A stretch of 64,000 nt of DNA from Flavobacteriaceae bacterium. Lineage in GTDB: Bacteria; Bacteroidota; Bacteroidia; Flavobacteriales; Flavobacteriaceae. The notes beneath the pieces were generated by a model. It was not told the origin of the DNA. It worked only from the letters and a program-made list of their open reading frames with translations, and searched no databases. Shown here piece by piece: positions 52,908 to 57,413 of this stretch; positions within the stretch are counted from its first letter, which is position 1, and the number at the start of each line of letters is the position of its first letter. Made by a program: the position numbers and the translations under genes. The stretch lies in the NCBI GenBank assembly GCA_030726725.1, contig JANRDC010000021.1:1-64000 (forward strand), written 5' to 3'.

Positions 52908-52967
52908 TTTCTTTTTTGGTTTTGTGTTTCGGGATTTATTTTAACTTTATGCGCATATAGTTTACGC

Positions 52968-53882
52968 GTGTCCCCAGAATACATTCAATCTACTTTTAGC
53001 ACCAAGGATTTAGCCCTGCTCAGCGGGATTAAAGCCCATACCATTCGCATGTGGGAGAAACGCTACCAATTGTTTGCTCCTGACCGAACCCAAACCAACA
53101 TACGAAATTACGACCTCAACGAGCTGAAGAAGCTGCTCAACATAGCTTATCTAGTTCGTCAAGGAGCCCGGATTTCTTCTGTGGCAGAGCTTACAGACCA
53201 ACAGATCCAAAAACAAGTCGAGAAAGAGGTCGCTAAAAAGCAATCAGGAGATTACCACCAAGAGGCGTTGTTGATGGCTACTTTGGGCTATGATGTTGCT
53301 GCTTTTCAAGGTGTGCTGAAAAAACTGCTGCAACAGGATTCTTTTGAACAAGTCTACGGACAGATTTTGTTGCCTTTTATCCAAACGATAGGGATGCTTT
53401 GGCATGCAGGCACCTTGGACCTCACCCATGAGCATTTTGCTACCCAGATGATCCAACGTCAGTTGCTGTTGAATACAGCGGCTTTGGATGCCTTGCCTAA
53501 GCGCACAGACACTCCGTTTTTTGTATTGTTTCTTCCGGATAATGAAATCCACGCTTTGGGCTTGGAACTCGCCCAGTATTTGATCTTAAAACGAGGTATG
53601 GATGTTCTGATGCTCGGTCCCTCAGTTCCTTTGGATGGATTGGTCAAGTTTACTTCCTCCGCCCAAAAAGTGATCTTCCTCTCCTTTTTTACTGTGCGGC
53701 CAGCCGCCCCTGATTTGGAGTTGTATGTCAAGCAAGCCAAAAAACTTTTGTTGGAAAAAAACCCCCACGCGCTTTGGGTATTAGGTGCTAGAGCCAGTGA
53801 AATTCCCGATGCGCTTTGCAGTGCACAACTGTTAAAATTCACTACCATTCCCTCGTTCATCAGAGCTCTTGATGCGCTGTAA
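52968..53882 (+). CDS. MerR-family regulator with cobalamin-binding domain (CarH/LitR-like)
   Basis: 304 aa. The N-terminal MerR DNA-binding domain (FSTKDLALLSGIKAHTIRMWEKRY) is followed by a four-helix bundle with Trp145, Glu155 and His156, exactly the W-x9-EH spacing of the CarH cobalamin cap. A Rossmann-type B12-binding domain carries ExHxxG (Glu193, His195, Gly198), the lower-ligand position. In characterised homologues adenosylcobalamin-bound tetramers repress carotenoid genes in the dark and fall apart in light. The start is a GTG at 52968. It lies immediately upstream of crtI on the same strand, supporting light control of this operon (inferred). Confidence 0.87.
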   Translation: MSPEYIQSTFSTKDLALLSGIKAHTIRMWEKRYQLFAPDRTQTNIRNYDLNELKKLLNIAYLVRQGARISSVAELTDQQIQKQVEKEVAKKQSGDYHQEALLMATLGYDVAAFQGVLKKLLQQDSFEQVYGQILLPFIQTIGMLWHAGTLDLTHEHFATQMIQRQLLLNTAALDALPKRTDTPFFVLFLPDNEIHALGLELAQYLILKRGMDVLMLGPSVPLDGLVKFTSSAQKVIFLSFFTVRPAAPDLELYVKQAKKLLLEKNPHALWVLGARASEIPDALCSAQLLKFTTIPSFIRALDAL

Positions 53883-53883
53883 T

Positions 53884-53919
53884 TTTTGTTTAGTTTTTTT
53901 TAAAAATTATTAAACAAAA
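53884..53919 (+). promoter_or_regulatory. Inverted repeat upstream of crtI, operator candidate
   Basis: Perfect 9-bp arms TTTTGTTTA (53884-53892) and TAAACAAAA (53911-53919) are separated by an A/T-rich 18-nt spacer that is itself nearly symmetric. It lies between the MerR-type regulator and crtI, 42 nt before the crtI ATG. It may bind the adjacent regulator, or may act as a weak hairpin ending the regulator transcript; the sequence cannot decide. A one-mismatch -7-like box, TAATTTCG, lies at 53935-53942. Confidence 0.45.
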
Positions 53920-53961
53920 TTCATCGGTTATCCCTAATTTCGCTATCATTACATATTTGAT

Positions 53962-55425
53962 ATGCGTATATCTGTTTTAGGTTCCGGTTTTTCTTCTTTG
54001 TCTGCTGCGTGTTATTTGGCCCAGCAGGGTCATCAAGTGTCCGTTTATGAAAAAAACGGAAGTCTAGGTGGCCGAGCGCAACAGTATAAACACGCAGGGT
54101 TTACCTTCGATATGGGACCTACCTGGTACTGGATGCCAGATGTTTTTGAGCGTTTTTTTCAAGACTTTGGCCACGTGCCCTCGGATTACTACGCATTAAT
54201 CAAACTAAGTCCGGGTTATCAAGTTTTTTTTGGCAAGGACGATGTGTTTACAGTTTCCGATGACTTGGATGCGATTGTGCGCGCCTTTGAAGCGATTGAA
54301 ACTGGGGCAGGGAAGCGATTAAAAACTTTTTTAGCTGTTGCCCAAAGCAACTACGAAATTGCGATCAAGGATTTGGTATATCGTCCAGGCGAACACATTT
54401 TTGAGTTGATCACCCCCAAAACTGCGGCCAAATTGGGCCAGTTTTTTAGCAACATACAAGCCGATGCGGATCGATTATTTAAAGATACCCGCCTGAGGCA
54501 AATCCTTACTTTTCCCTCTTTGTTCCTGGGTGCAAAACCCTCGGATACCCCCTCTTTCTACAGCTTTATGAATTGGGCTGATCTAGGCCTAGGTACCTGG
54601 CATCCCAAGGGTGGAATGTACGCGGTTGTTCAGGGCATGGCTGATTTAGCTGAGTCTTTAGGCGTCAAGCTTCACACCCACGCATCTGTGGAAGGTATAG
54701 GCGTGATCCGAGGTGAGGTCAATCACATCGTGGTGCACGGCCAAGAGATCGCTACTGATTTGGTGGTTTCCGGTGCAGATTACGCACATACGGAGCAATT
54801 ACTTCCACAGCAATACAGACAATATTCTGATCAATATTGGAACTCCAAGACTTGGGCTCCATCAGCGCTTTTGTTTTACGTAGGTTTCAGTGAGAAAGTT
54901 TCTGGAGTAGAACACCACGCCTTGTTTTTTGACACAGATTTTTCCAAACACGCCTACACCATTTACGACGATCCCAGCTGGCCTGAGGAACCTTTGTTTT
55001 ACACCAGCTTTCCCTCCAAAACCGAGACATCGTGGGCTCCTGAAGGACAAGAAGCCGCTACATTTTTGATTCCTTTGGCCCCAGGTCTTGACGAAGCTCC
55101 TGAGGTTATTGAAGAGTATTTTAACCTGATTATGACCCGCCTTGAATTCCTGACAGGTCAGGAACTCAAGTCAAAAGTCTTGTTTAAAAAACACTTTTGT
55201 GTGGCTGATTTTATCACGGAGTACAACTCGTTTAAAGGAAATGCCTACGGTTTGGCCAACACTTTGTTGCAAACTCACATTTTACGCCCTAAATTGAAGA
55301 GCAAAAAGGTCAAAGGACTTTACTTTACCGGACAATTAACCGTTCCAGGCCCTGGGGTGCCCCCAGCCTTGATTTCTGGCAAATTGACCGCTGAGTTAAT
55401 CGCTAAATACGAACCTAAACCATAG
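53962..55425 (+). CDS. crtI: Phytoene desaturase
   Basis: 487 aa FAD enzyme converting phytoene to lycopene by successive desaturations. The N-terminal dinucleotide-binding motif (VLGSGFSSLSAACYLAQQGH, then NGSLGGRA), FDMGPTWYWMPD, and the C-terminal block GLYFTGQLTVPGPGVPPALIS match bacterial CrtI. Length is standard. Three nt separate it from crtB. The first enzyme-coding gene of the carotenoid operon. Confidence 0.96.
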   Translation: MRISVLGSGFSSLSAACYLAQQGHQVSVYEKNGSLGGRAQQYKHAGFTFDMGPTWYWMPDVFERFFQDFGHVPSDYYALIKLSPGYQVFFGKDDVFTVSDDLDAIVRAFEAIETGAGKRLKTFLAVAQSNYEIAIKDLVYRPGEHIFELITPKTAAKLGQFFSNIQADADRLFKDTRLRQILTFPSLFLGAKPSDTPSFYSFMNWADLGLGTWHPKGGMYAVVQGMADLAESLGVKLHTHASVEGIGVIRGEVNHIVVHGQEIATDLVVSGADYAHTEQLLPQQYRQYSDQYWNSKTWAPSALLFYVGFSEKVSGVEHHALFFDTDFSKHAYTIYDDPSWPEEPLFYTSFPSKTETSWAPEGQEAATFLIPLAPGLDEAPEVIEEYFNLIMTRLEFLTGQELKSKVLFKKHFCVADFITEYNSFKGNAYGLANTLLQTHILRPKLKSKKVKGLYFTGQLTVPGPGVPPALISGKLTAELIAKYEPKP

Positions 55426-55428
55426 CTT

Positions 55429-56268
55429 ATGAGTGCGCTTTACGATCAAGTTTCTGAGCATACCAGTCGCTTGGTGACCAAACAATACAGTACTTCCTTT
55501 TCTTTGGCGACTAAAATGCTTGGGGCCAATATAAGAAGGGACGTCTACAATATCTACGGTTTTGTGCGTTTAGCAGACGAGATTGTCGACACATTTCTCG
55601 CTTATGACAACCGCGCTTTATTTGATGATTTTGAGGCCCAGCTCTACAGAGCCTTGGACCAGCAAATCAGTTTAAACCCGGTTTTACACGCATTTCAACA
55701 GACCTATCACCGCAACAAAATTCCCTTGGAATACGTCAAGGCATTTATGAACAGTATGCGCGCTGATTTAGACATCAAGGATTACACTTCCAAAGAAGCG
55801 TATGAACAATACATTTACGGTTCAGCCGATGTGGTGGGTTTGATGTGTTTGTGTGTTTTCGTTCAGGGCGATTGCGATCAGTTTAACTATCTGAAACCCG
55901 CAGCCATGAAATTGGGTTCTGCCTTCCAAAAGGTCAATTTTTTACGCGACCTCAAGGATGACCAAGAGCATCTGGGTCGTTCCTATTTTCCCAACACCAA
56001 TTTATCCCAGCTTGACGAAGCCAGTAAGCAGGAATTGATCGATGAGATCGAACAAGACTTTGCCGAAAGTTATCAAGGGATCAAGGACCTGCCGGTAGAG
56101 GCTCGTTTTGGTGTTTTGGTGGCCTATAGATATTACAGACAGCTGTTAAAAAGCATCAAAAACACCCCGGCTGCCCAAATCAAAAAGAAGCGTATTCGGG
56201 TGCATAATGTGAAAAAAATGGACCTTTTATTCAGGTCCTTTGTGCGTTATCAATTAAATTTACTTTGA
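55429..56268 (+). CDS. crtB: Phytoene synthase
   Basis: 279 aa. Condenses two geranylgeranyl diphosphates to phytoene. Both Asp-rich substrate motifs are intact: LADEIVDTF and FLRDLKDDQEHLGRSYFP. The all-helical squalene/phytoene synthase fold is expected. Its TGA overlaps the crtZ ATG by one base (TGATG), implying coupled translation. No geranylgeranyl diphosphate synthase gene is present in the window. Confidence 0.96.
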   Translation: MSALYDQVSEHTSRLVTKQYSTSFSLATKMLGANIRRDVYNIYGFVRLADEIVDTFLAYDNRALFDDFEAQLYRALDQQISLNPVLHAFQQTYHRNKIPLEYVKAFMNSMRADLDIKDYTSKEAYEQYIYGSADVVGLMCLCVFVQGDCDQFNYLKPAAMKLGSAFQKVNFLRDLKDDQEHLGRSYFPNTNLSQLDEASKQELIDEIEQDFAESYQGIKDLPVEARFGVLVAYRYYRQLLKSIKNTPAAQIKKKRIRVHNVKKMDLLFRSFVRYQLNLL

Positions 56269-56720
56269 TGGAAATTCTGTTGAACATTCTTATTTTTCTT
56301 GGGGTTTTTGCAGGTATGGAGGGTATGGCTTGGGCTACCCATAAATATGTCATGCACGGGTTTTTGTGGTACCTACATGCGGACCACCACAAAAGAGATC
56401 ACGACAGTGTTTTTGAGCGCAACGACGCTTTTTTTCTTTTTTACGCAGCGGTGAGCATCGGAAATTTTATGTTGTGGAGTTATCAGATTTTCGATTACGG
56501 CCTGGCTGTAGGCTTGGGCATATTGGCCTATGGGCTGACTTACTTCTTGGTGCACGATGTGTTCATACACCGTCGCCTCAAGTGGTTTCGCAACGCCAAC
56601 TCTCGATACGCCAAAGCATTGAGACGCGCCCACAAGATGCACCACAAGCATCTAGGTAAAGACCAAGGCGAATGCTTTGGTATGCTGTTTTTCCCACTAA
56701 AATATTTAAAAGACCAATAG
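56268..56720 (+). CDS. crtZ: Beta-carotene 3-hydroxylase
   Basis: 150 aa membrane di-iron hydroxylase. The four His motifs are all present: HKYVMHG, HADHHK, HDVFIHRR and HKMHHKHLG. It hydroxylates the beta rings of beta-carotene to give zeaxanthin. I use the ATG at 56268, which overlaps the crtB stop; a TTG at 56265 is the only longer option. The next gene abuts its stop. Confidence 0.95.
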   Translation: MEILLNILIFLGVFAGMEGMAWATHKYVMHGFLWYLHADHHKRDHDSVFERNDAFFLFYAAVSIGNFMLWSYQIFDYGLAVGLGILAYGLTYFLVHDVFIHRRLKWFRNANSRYAKALRRAHKMHHKHLGKDQGECFGMLFFPLKYLKDQ

Positions 56721-57413
56721 TTGTCTAAGCTCTACCTGTTGCTCAATATAGGGAGTATACTTTTCCCGATTGTCGCCAGCTTTCACCCAAAATCTGGATT
56801 GGCTCGGCATTGGAAAGCATATTGGGGCGGTATTGCGATTTCTGCAGTTATTTTTTTGGTGTGGGATGCCGTGTTTACCCAACACGGAGTTTGGGGTTTT
56901 AACGACCAGTATCTGCTAGGTCCAAGATTTTGGGGTATGCCTTTGGAGGAGTGGATGTTTTTCTTTTGTATCCCATATGCCAGTTTATTTATCCATTTTT
57001 TAGGGGTCAAATACTACGGTGATCGATGGCAATTTCCCAGAAAAATCACCCAGATTGTCTATTTGTTGATGGTAGTTTGGGCGGTGGTTCAAATCATCGC
57101 ATTTTCCCCCCGCTGGTACACCACAGTCAATGCTGTATTTTTTCTTTTGATTTTTACTTTAGGCTATATTTTCCACCCCAAGGCCCTGTTTCAATTCCTG
57201 CCTTCATTTTTGATCATCATGATCCCATTTATCGCGATCAATGGAATATTAACGGGCTCAGGACTTGAGCAACCCGTGGTTTGGTACAATAACGCCCAAA
57301 ACATGTCCCTGCGTTTGGGCACCATCCCCTTAGAGGATTTTATGTACGCGTTTAGCATGCTCTTTCTCAGTTGGATGGGTTTTGAGCGAATTTCTGCGGG
57401 TAAACCGATTTAG
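56721..57413 (+). CDS. crtY: Lycopene beta-cyclase, fused CrtYcd type
   Basis: 230 aa with about seven membrane helices. Two tandem halves show the motifs of heterodimeric lycopene cyclases: FTQHGVWGFNDQYLLG and MPLEEWMFFFCIPYASLFI in the first half, and TIPLEDFMYAFSMLF in the second. It should cyclise lycopene ends to beta rings. It is unrelated to the flavin-dependent CrtY type. The start is a TTG directly after the crtZ TAG, so it is probably translated by coupling. Last gene of the operon; the next gene is convergent, and no clear terminator is seen in the 15-nt gap. Confidence 0.9.
   Translation: MSKLYLLLNIGSILFPIVASFHPKSGLARHWKAYWGGIAISAVIFLVWDAVFTQHGVWGFNDQYLLGPRFWGMPLEEWMFFFCIPYASLFIHFLGVKYYGDRWQFPRKITQIVYLLMVVWAVVQIIAFSPRWYTTVNAVFFLLIFTLGYIFHPKALFQFLPSFLIIMIPFIAINGILTGSGLEQPVVWYNNAQNMSLRLGTIPLEDFMYAFSMLFLSWMGFERISAGKPI

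Follow-up and report, generated by a model that had tools for sequence, protein, structure and literature searches.

A predicted inverted operator links a CarH-type regulator to a candidate light regulon in Bacteroidia

A regulatory gene located immediately upstream of a carotenoid operon in a Flavobacteriaceae bacterium probably codes for a light-sensing repressor of the CarH type that depends on adenosylcobalamin and would run a light regulon in Bacteroidia through an inverted operator (probability of about 0.78). The gene is found in the window, i.e., the whole stretch of 64,000 nucleotides that was analyzed, which corresponds to contig 21 of a 1.73-Mb genome (98% complete, 31 contigs). This reading draws on computed data for the protein (its family, key residues, and fold), for the operator (its conservation and preferred spacing), and for the association of the operator with carH across genomes and with light genes. 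From these we infer binding to the site in the window, repression in the dark, dependence on B12 and light, and induction of proteorhodopsin. In the dark, the B12-loaded oligomer would contact both inverted TnnACA half-sites of TTGTTTA-N18-TAAACAA and thereby block the crt promoter. In the light, the Co-C bond would be broken and the oligomer loosened, and crtI, crtB, crtZ, and the lycopene cyclase gene would be transcribed. The same operator, bound by the window protein and/or its paralogue, would control genes for photolyases/cryptochromes and pterins (folate/antenna), and also a proteorhodopsin and beta-carotene dioxygenase gene pair.

Table 1. Features of the regulator and carotenoid locus in the window
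Feature	Coordinates	Strand	Remarks
CarH-like regulator ORF	52968..53882	+	GTG start, 304 aa; MerR winged helix, helical B12 cap, and cobalamin-binding Rossmann-like domain
Predicted CarH operator TTGTTTA-N18-TAAACAA	53886..53917	.	Perfect 9-bp arms extend to 53884-53892 and 53911-53919
crtI, phytoene desaturase	53962..55425	+	NCBIfam CrtID, over cut-off
crtB-like, phytoene/squalene synthase family	55429..56268	+	Pfam SQS_PSY
crtZ-like, putative beta-carotene hydroxylase	56268..56720	+	No match in Pfam and NCBIfam profile searches; homologues adjoin crtB in relatives
Lycopene cyclase, CarR-type domain	56721..57413	+	Pfam Lycopene_cyc, NCBIfam CarR_dom_SF

The carH-like gene, whose nearest named relatives come from Flavobacteriaceae MAGs, is followed by a 79-nt intergenic region and then by crtI, crtB, the CrtZ-like ORF, and the lycopene cyclase gene (Table 1). 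We take the third of these to be crtZ-like from its pattern of His motifs. The CrtID cut-off passed by CrtI is that of a bifunctional phytoene desaturase/3,4-desaturase, which makes zeaxanthin less certain as the product. With the CrtZ-like ORF matching no profile, the naming of zeaxanthin in the earlier note was a guess. The same gene set (crtI, crtB, crtZ, and a CarR-type cyclase gene) is light induced in another member of the Flavobacteriia, Chryseobacterium lacus, where HPLC supports zeaxanthin. Unlike the situation here, the authors report no car/lit operon genes and propose an unknown regulator, according to passages of their paper (PMC7064467).

Domain and structure analyses placed the regulator next to Thermus CarH. 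The protein has an N-terminal MerR helix-turn-helix (Pfam MerR_1, E 7e-12) and a B12 cap domain (B12-binding_2). A Pfam search found no match for its Rossmann-like B12 domain, and the phmmer alignment with Thermus CarH (E 4e-18) ends at residue 227. The top PDB match of its AlphaFold model (pLDDT 89.5) in Foldseek was 5c8e, the Thermus CarH-DNA complex (E 9e-15). CarH of Thermus thermophilus (TtCarH; PDB 5c8d/5c8e) is composed of a MerR domain, a helical cap, and a cobalamin domain, as is the window protein, to which it is ~22% identical. The cobalamin domain of the model matched that of TtCarH with a Z of 18.3 and an rmsd of 2.5 over 196 residues. The full-length comparison gave a Z of 19.2 and an rmsd of 10.7 over 272 residues, indicating that the relative orientation of the MerR and cobalamin domains differs from that in TtCarH. 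Against the NCBIfam CarH equivalog NF052513 the protein scored 85 bits, below the curated cut-off of 400. The source genome codes for a second CarH-like paralogue (L118:6825-7778, on contig C5), ~40% identical and located within a photolyase cluster.

The earlier note had placed Trp145, Glu155, and His156 at the spacing of the CarH cap and His195 in an ExHxxG motif, and all were found in the protein as described. Both the cap pattern Trp-x9-Glu-His and the lower-ligand motif ExHxxG (E193/H195/G198) align with TtCarH, whose W131, E141, H142, and H177 correspond to W145, E155, H156, and H195, and whose H132 corresponds to H146. The motifs read G142-M-L-W145-H146, E155-H156, N192-E193-I194-H195-A-L-G198, and G217-PSV-P221, and as judged from these letters the window protein satisfies the CarH pocket. 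Three of the four elements of the light signature published in PMC11796333 (GxxW, EH, GxxH, and GxxxP) are present, with NxxH at the position of GxxH. Bacteroidota proteins could for this reason escape strict signature searches. The full signature occurs in CtMerR of Chloracidobacterium (PDB 8jbs/8jbt), which, unlike the window regulator in this respect, is otherwise similar to it: it combines a MerR domain with a light-responsive cobalamin domain and is a strong structural match. The Gly of GxxH in CtMerR works through its main-chain carbonyl, according to passages of PMC11796333, so Asn192 may be tolerated. These passages describe neither an operator nor a regulon for CtMerR.

Residue conservation was determined over 80 homologues, with the own-genome paralogue included and a 157-aa fragment (L038) excluded. 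G142, W145, and P221 were found in all 80, H195 in 79, and E155 in 78. H156 is kept in 58 and replaced by Gln in 19. At the position of H132 in TtCarH, the window protein and only 1 of the 80 homologues have His, whereas 56 have Gln, so that the photochemistry following cleavage of the Co-C bond may be different in the majority of Bacteroidota.

B12-dependent photocontrol is consistent with these residues, with the fold, and with what the genome offers for cobalamin supply. The genome contains an adenosyltransferase gene (Cob_adeno_trans) and a cobalamin riboswitch (C31:23564-23764) ahead of an ORF that we take to be a TonB-receptor-like gene, divergent from ORFs that are presumably BtuF/BtuC-like. 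It thus appears to import and adenosylate B12, and a supply of adenosylcobalamin is plausible. The strongest alternative is that the regulator does act at the site but independently of B12, or that it senses the level of cobalamin rather than light. There is a precedent in M. xanthus, where CarA is a B12-independent paralogue (passages of PMC9304148). The Gln found at position 156 in 19 of 80 homologues, the rarity of the H132 equivalent, the NxxH, and the divergence of the C-terminal domain, in which the phmmer match stops, would also fit it. However, the window protein itself retains W145, E155, H156, H195, G217/P221, and H146, the genome seems equipped to provide the cofactor, and sites of the same type are found by photolyase and rhodopsin genes (see below). 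We therefore consider a B12-independent or cobalamin-level regulator unlikely and retain the light sensor as the preferred reading.

As to the DNA site, the earlier note had pointed out a perfect 9-bp inverted repeat between the regulator gene and crtI. Its arms, TTTTGTTTA and TAAACAAAA, are indeed exact reverse complements, and they are nested in an imperfect 36-bp palindrome whose arms are 83% complementary. Taken alone, the repeat proves little, because a perfect 9-bp inverted repeat arose in 715 of 20,000 shuffles of the 79-nt intergenic region (3.6%; shuffles were mononucleotide unless stated otherwise). Cross-genome conservation therefore had to decide. A search of the source genome for TTGTTTA-N{10,26}-TAAACAA yielded five exact sites, all with N18, versus one for the reversed control; the number of exact N18 sites expected in the genome was 0.011 (mononucleotide, window composition). 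When one mismatch was allowed, 10 N18 sites were found versus 1 in the control. With up to two mismatches the numbers were 32 versus 20, i.e., mostly noise, and only sites with zero or one mismatch were thus used. That the window might hold another intact operator just ahead of carH was considered and rejected, as the best partial match (52916-52947) has five mismatches.

The spacing of 18 bp is also the preferred one at carH loci of other genomes. We collected 80 homologue loci (745 kb) by peptide patterns of the window protein; these loci are interrelated, and many are from Psychroflexus. They contained 31 exact arm pairs with N18, 3 with N19, and 0 or 1 for each of the other 27 spacers between 4 and 32. 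At most 450 bp from carH and with at most one mismatch (hereafter near carH), 57 N18 sites were present in 51 of the 80 loci, all of them Bacteroidota homologues. When spacers of 8 to 28 were compared, near-carH pairs occurred in 50 loci for N18, 14 for N19, 8 for N26, and 0 to 2 for the others. Many of the N19 cases correspond to a second palindrome that spans the start of carH in loci of the Psychroflexus type, and some to an N19 variant in Bacteroidales, which is exact in loci L080, L088, and L091. The site lies either just upstream of a carH gene that leads its operon or, as in the window, between the carH stop and crtI; in Bacteroidales it is found a few hundred bp downstream of carH. The 29 loci that lack an N18 site near carH speak against a CarH operator. 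The Trp-x9-Glu-His pattern is absent from 22 of the 80 loci, many of them from Psychroflexus (e.g., L044), and 18 of these 22 keep the N18 site near carH.

The check set by the earlier note, namely, whether relatives that have the regulator keep the repeat before crtI, gave a favorable result. The arms are intact at the carH-crtI site of the two closest relatives found, and an N18 site with no more than one mismatch is present in 31 of 39 crtI-linked loci (crtI at most 800 bp from the carH end). The eight without it (L049, L059, L063, L069, L070, L071, L075, and L112) count against the proposal. Seven comparisons over four sites in these two relatives revealed changes at 0 of 98 positions in the arms versus 24 of 126 in the spacer, which is little conserved in its middle. 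The orthology of the crt and photolyase sites was checked by their neighboring genes, whereas that of the other two, by what we take to be hisG and gcvP, rests on the likeness of the sites themselves. The proposal that the repeat is an operator thus has strong comparative support.

Thermus CarH controls carotenoid genes, and the TtCarH operator is made of three 11-bp direct repeats, in contrast to the single inverted pair with N18 described here, whose half-sites have their centers 24 bp apart. According to passages of PMC9304148, the sites bound by CarH in Thermus and Bacillus consist of three or four 11-bp units (nnnnTnnACAn) in tandem, a pattern of which the myxobacterial operators are variants. 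The same passages describe the sites of Bacillus megaterium and Myxococcales as tandem direct repeats or degenerate versions of them, unlike the site here, but with the common half-site TnnACA and with operators that overlap promoters; in many myxobacteria the regulator gene is located within or next to the crt cluster, as here, and binding of M. xanthus CarA at Pcrt has been described with inverted repeats as well (PMC9304148). The core TAAACA present in both arms in the window fits this published TnnACA, and the fit speaks for CarH as the protein bound there. An operator of the known direct-repeat type was rejected, as the longest run of 11-bp nnnnTnnACAn units is one for the window site as well as for 55 of the 57 near-carH sites, and two for the other two. 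An inverted gap of 18 was found 52 times among these 57 sites. The view of the earlier note that the sequence differs from known CarH sites therefore holds for the arrangement, which is inverted, has a spacer of 18 bp, and lacks 11-bp tandem repeats, but not for the letters. By this comparison the regulator is of a known kind and the half-site letters are not new, but the way in which the operator is arranged is. In the open-access literature searched, no paper was found with an inverted TnnACA pair at 18 bp, and no title among the matches listed dealt with the operator (queried as TTGTTTAA with Flavobacteri) or with CarH control of proteorhodopsin.

Where the operator lies relative to promoters was also analyzed. 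TAnnTTTG is the -7 promoter element of Bacteroidota, and it was found between 10 bp before and ~35 bp after the operator at 38 of the 57 near-carH sites, compared with a mean of 4.8 and a maximum of 10 in 200 mononucleotide shuffles. Certain offsets are recurrent (50 in 16 sites, 6 in 12, -4 in 6, and 17 in 3) and are shared by related loci. This suggests that the operator contains or borders the promoter, as a repressor site would. In the window, no exact TAnnTTTG was found on either strand between 53846 and 53990, which is an argument against the proposal, nor was one found near the site of the closest relative, L037. No sigma-70 type promoter was found in 53700-54100.

We compared the number of N18 sites with at most one mismatch with that of the reversed control in 249 Flavobacteriaceae genomes. 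The 220 genomes with carH contained 2574 sites versus 1502 in the control, and the 27 without carH contained 168 versus 200 (Mann-Whitney p 3e-8, kinship ignored); two others, in which the MerR match was no more than weak (8 versus 13), were kept apart. The excess was weak (180 versus 148, p 0.085) in the 22 carH-containing genomes with a more distant homologue, which counts against the proposal. In a sample of 148 genomes from the phylum, 32 with a close carH homologue had 307 sites versus 188, including 15 Bacteroidia from outside the Flavobacteriaceae with 80 versus 51. The remaining 116, without close carH, had 280 versus 356, i.e., no excess in sum. Seven carH-less genomes of the family and 50 match-less genomes of the phylum were assigned by elimination. 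As the excess is present in the sums with carH and missing from those without, it travels with carH.

The genes next to N18 sites point to a candidate light regulon. We analyzed 85 exact N18 sites of relatives among the matches listed, leaving out three from genome G005 and two from G002, and used as controls 36 of the 38 listed sites with the same arms and another spacer. For 27 of these 36 controls, the genome of origin has a clear carH match. Light genes were defined as carH, crt, photolyase, PTPS, folE, rhodopsin, or dioxygenase genes at most 1.5 kb from the site. Such genes were near 37 of the 85 sites and none of the 36 controls (Fisher p 9e-8, among the matches listed). After removal of the carH-adjacent sites, the proportions were 13 of 61 versus 0 of 36 (p 0.0014, again among the matches listed). 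The 37 listed sites comprise 24 with carH, 6 with photolyase, 5 with PTPS/folE only, and 2 with rhodopsin/dioxygenase. No light gene was near the three exact N18 sites, among the matches listed, of G027 and G106, two genomes with no carH match.

In the source genome, one exact N18 site is located in a divergent region of the photolyase cluster. Genes for an SRPBCC-like protein (weak match), an SDR, a photolyase, the second CarH, and a flavin reductase lie on one side, and those for PTPS, FolE, a photolyase, and DPRP lie on the other. Another site, with one mismatch (L198:1501-1532, i.e., C5:41414-41445), lies between two divergent genes, 13 bp ahead of one for a rhodopsin (PF01036) and at a distance of 61 bp from one for a beta-carotene 15,15'-dioxygenase (PF15461), and the latter is itself adjoined by a TetR-like gene. 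The same divergent pair has exact N18 sites in two relatives, G045 and G011 (L220:7947 and L275:2501), although the resulting three of three is a biased rate, since these loci were chosen for having the site. In Dokdonia PRO95, proteorhodopsin expression is called constitutive, an argument against its control by light there, and regulation in flavobacteria such as this one is said to need further work (passages of PMC3587595).

Some genes with no evident place in the definition above were also recurrent. Fasciclin-domain genes lie within 600 bp of 19 of the 85 N18 sites versus 0 of the 36 controls, among the matches listed. Several of them are divergent from what we take to be an mnmA-like gene. 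These loci include L208, L212, L216, L220, L223, L228, L234, L238, L245, L247, L251-L254, L261, L265, L271, and L274; a link of the fasciclin genes to light is hypothetical, and their recurrence counts against the proposal. Other recurrent neighbors of the 85 listed sites were htpG (5), TetR_C_23 (4), Porph_ging-type (4), acyl-CoA dehydrogenase (3), and ABC1 (2) genes, with htpG (Hsp90) and a TetR_C_23-ABC1 kinase pair recurring at L211, L230, L233, L244, and L276 and at C5:26217 of the source genome. Light genes or recurrent genes cover 70 of the 85 sites among the matches listed, a figure for which recurrent genes such as fasciclin were picked post hoc and the queries drawn from the same loci. 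The wider regulon, including proteorhodopsin, is the least proven part of the proposal.

Such a distribution of sites raises the alternative that the palindrome belongs to another regulator that co-occurs with carH, for instance a TetR or a different MerR protein, carH being a mere neighbor. That 61 of the 85 listed sites are away from carH, that TetR_C_23 genes are by 4 of them, and that a TetR-like gene is beside the dioxygenase gene of the source genome would be in keeping with it. Nevertheless, a site lies at most 450 bp from carH in 51 of 80 loci, the carH-less genomes of both samples show no summed excess, the half-sites match TnnACA, and the regulon is rich in photolyase, carotenoid, and rhodopsin genes. 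On balance, binding by another regulator appears improbable, marginally more so than loss of B12 dependence. It is very improbable that the repeat is nothing but an AT-rich chance palindrome or a transcript hairpin or terminator after carH: the shuffles do produce such repeats and the RNA fold has a z of -2.35, but no terminator-like site was found in 53700-54100, the arms are conserved and the spacing is preferred across genera while the mid-spacer is little conserved, sites are also found upstream of carH and in divergent promoters, and the spacing and co-occurrence counts refute this as the sole explanation.

CarH binding therefore remains the preferred reading of the operator. Its generalization, that CarH of Bacteroidota uses a single inverted TnnACA pair at an almost fixed 18 bp to control carotenoid, photolyase/cryptochrome, pterin, and surface fasciclin genes across Bacteroidia and, in Flavobacteriaceae that have rhodopsin, the genes for proteorhodopsin and the dioxygenase that forms its retinal, has in our view slightly better than even odds of being right.

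As the proposal names the regulator, its 32-bp operator, and the target genes, it makes the regulation of proteorhodopsin and of the carotenoid of Chryseobacterium lacus directly testable, and a compact light-responsive operator may become available for use in Bacteroidota. If the proposal is true, rhodopsin phototrophy would be tied to vitamin B12, with the vitamin serving as the chromophore that determines when the light-driven pump is made in these bacteria.
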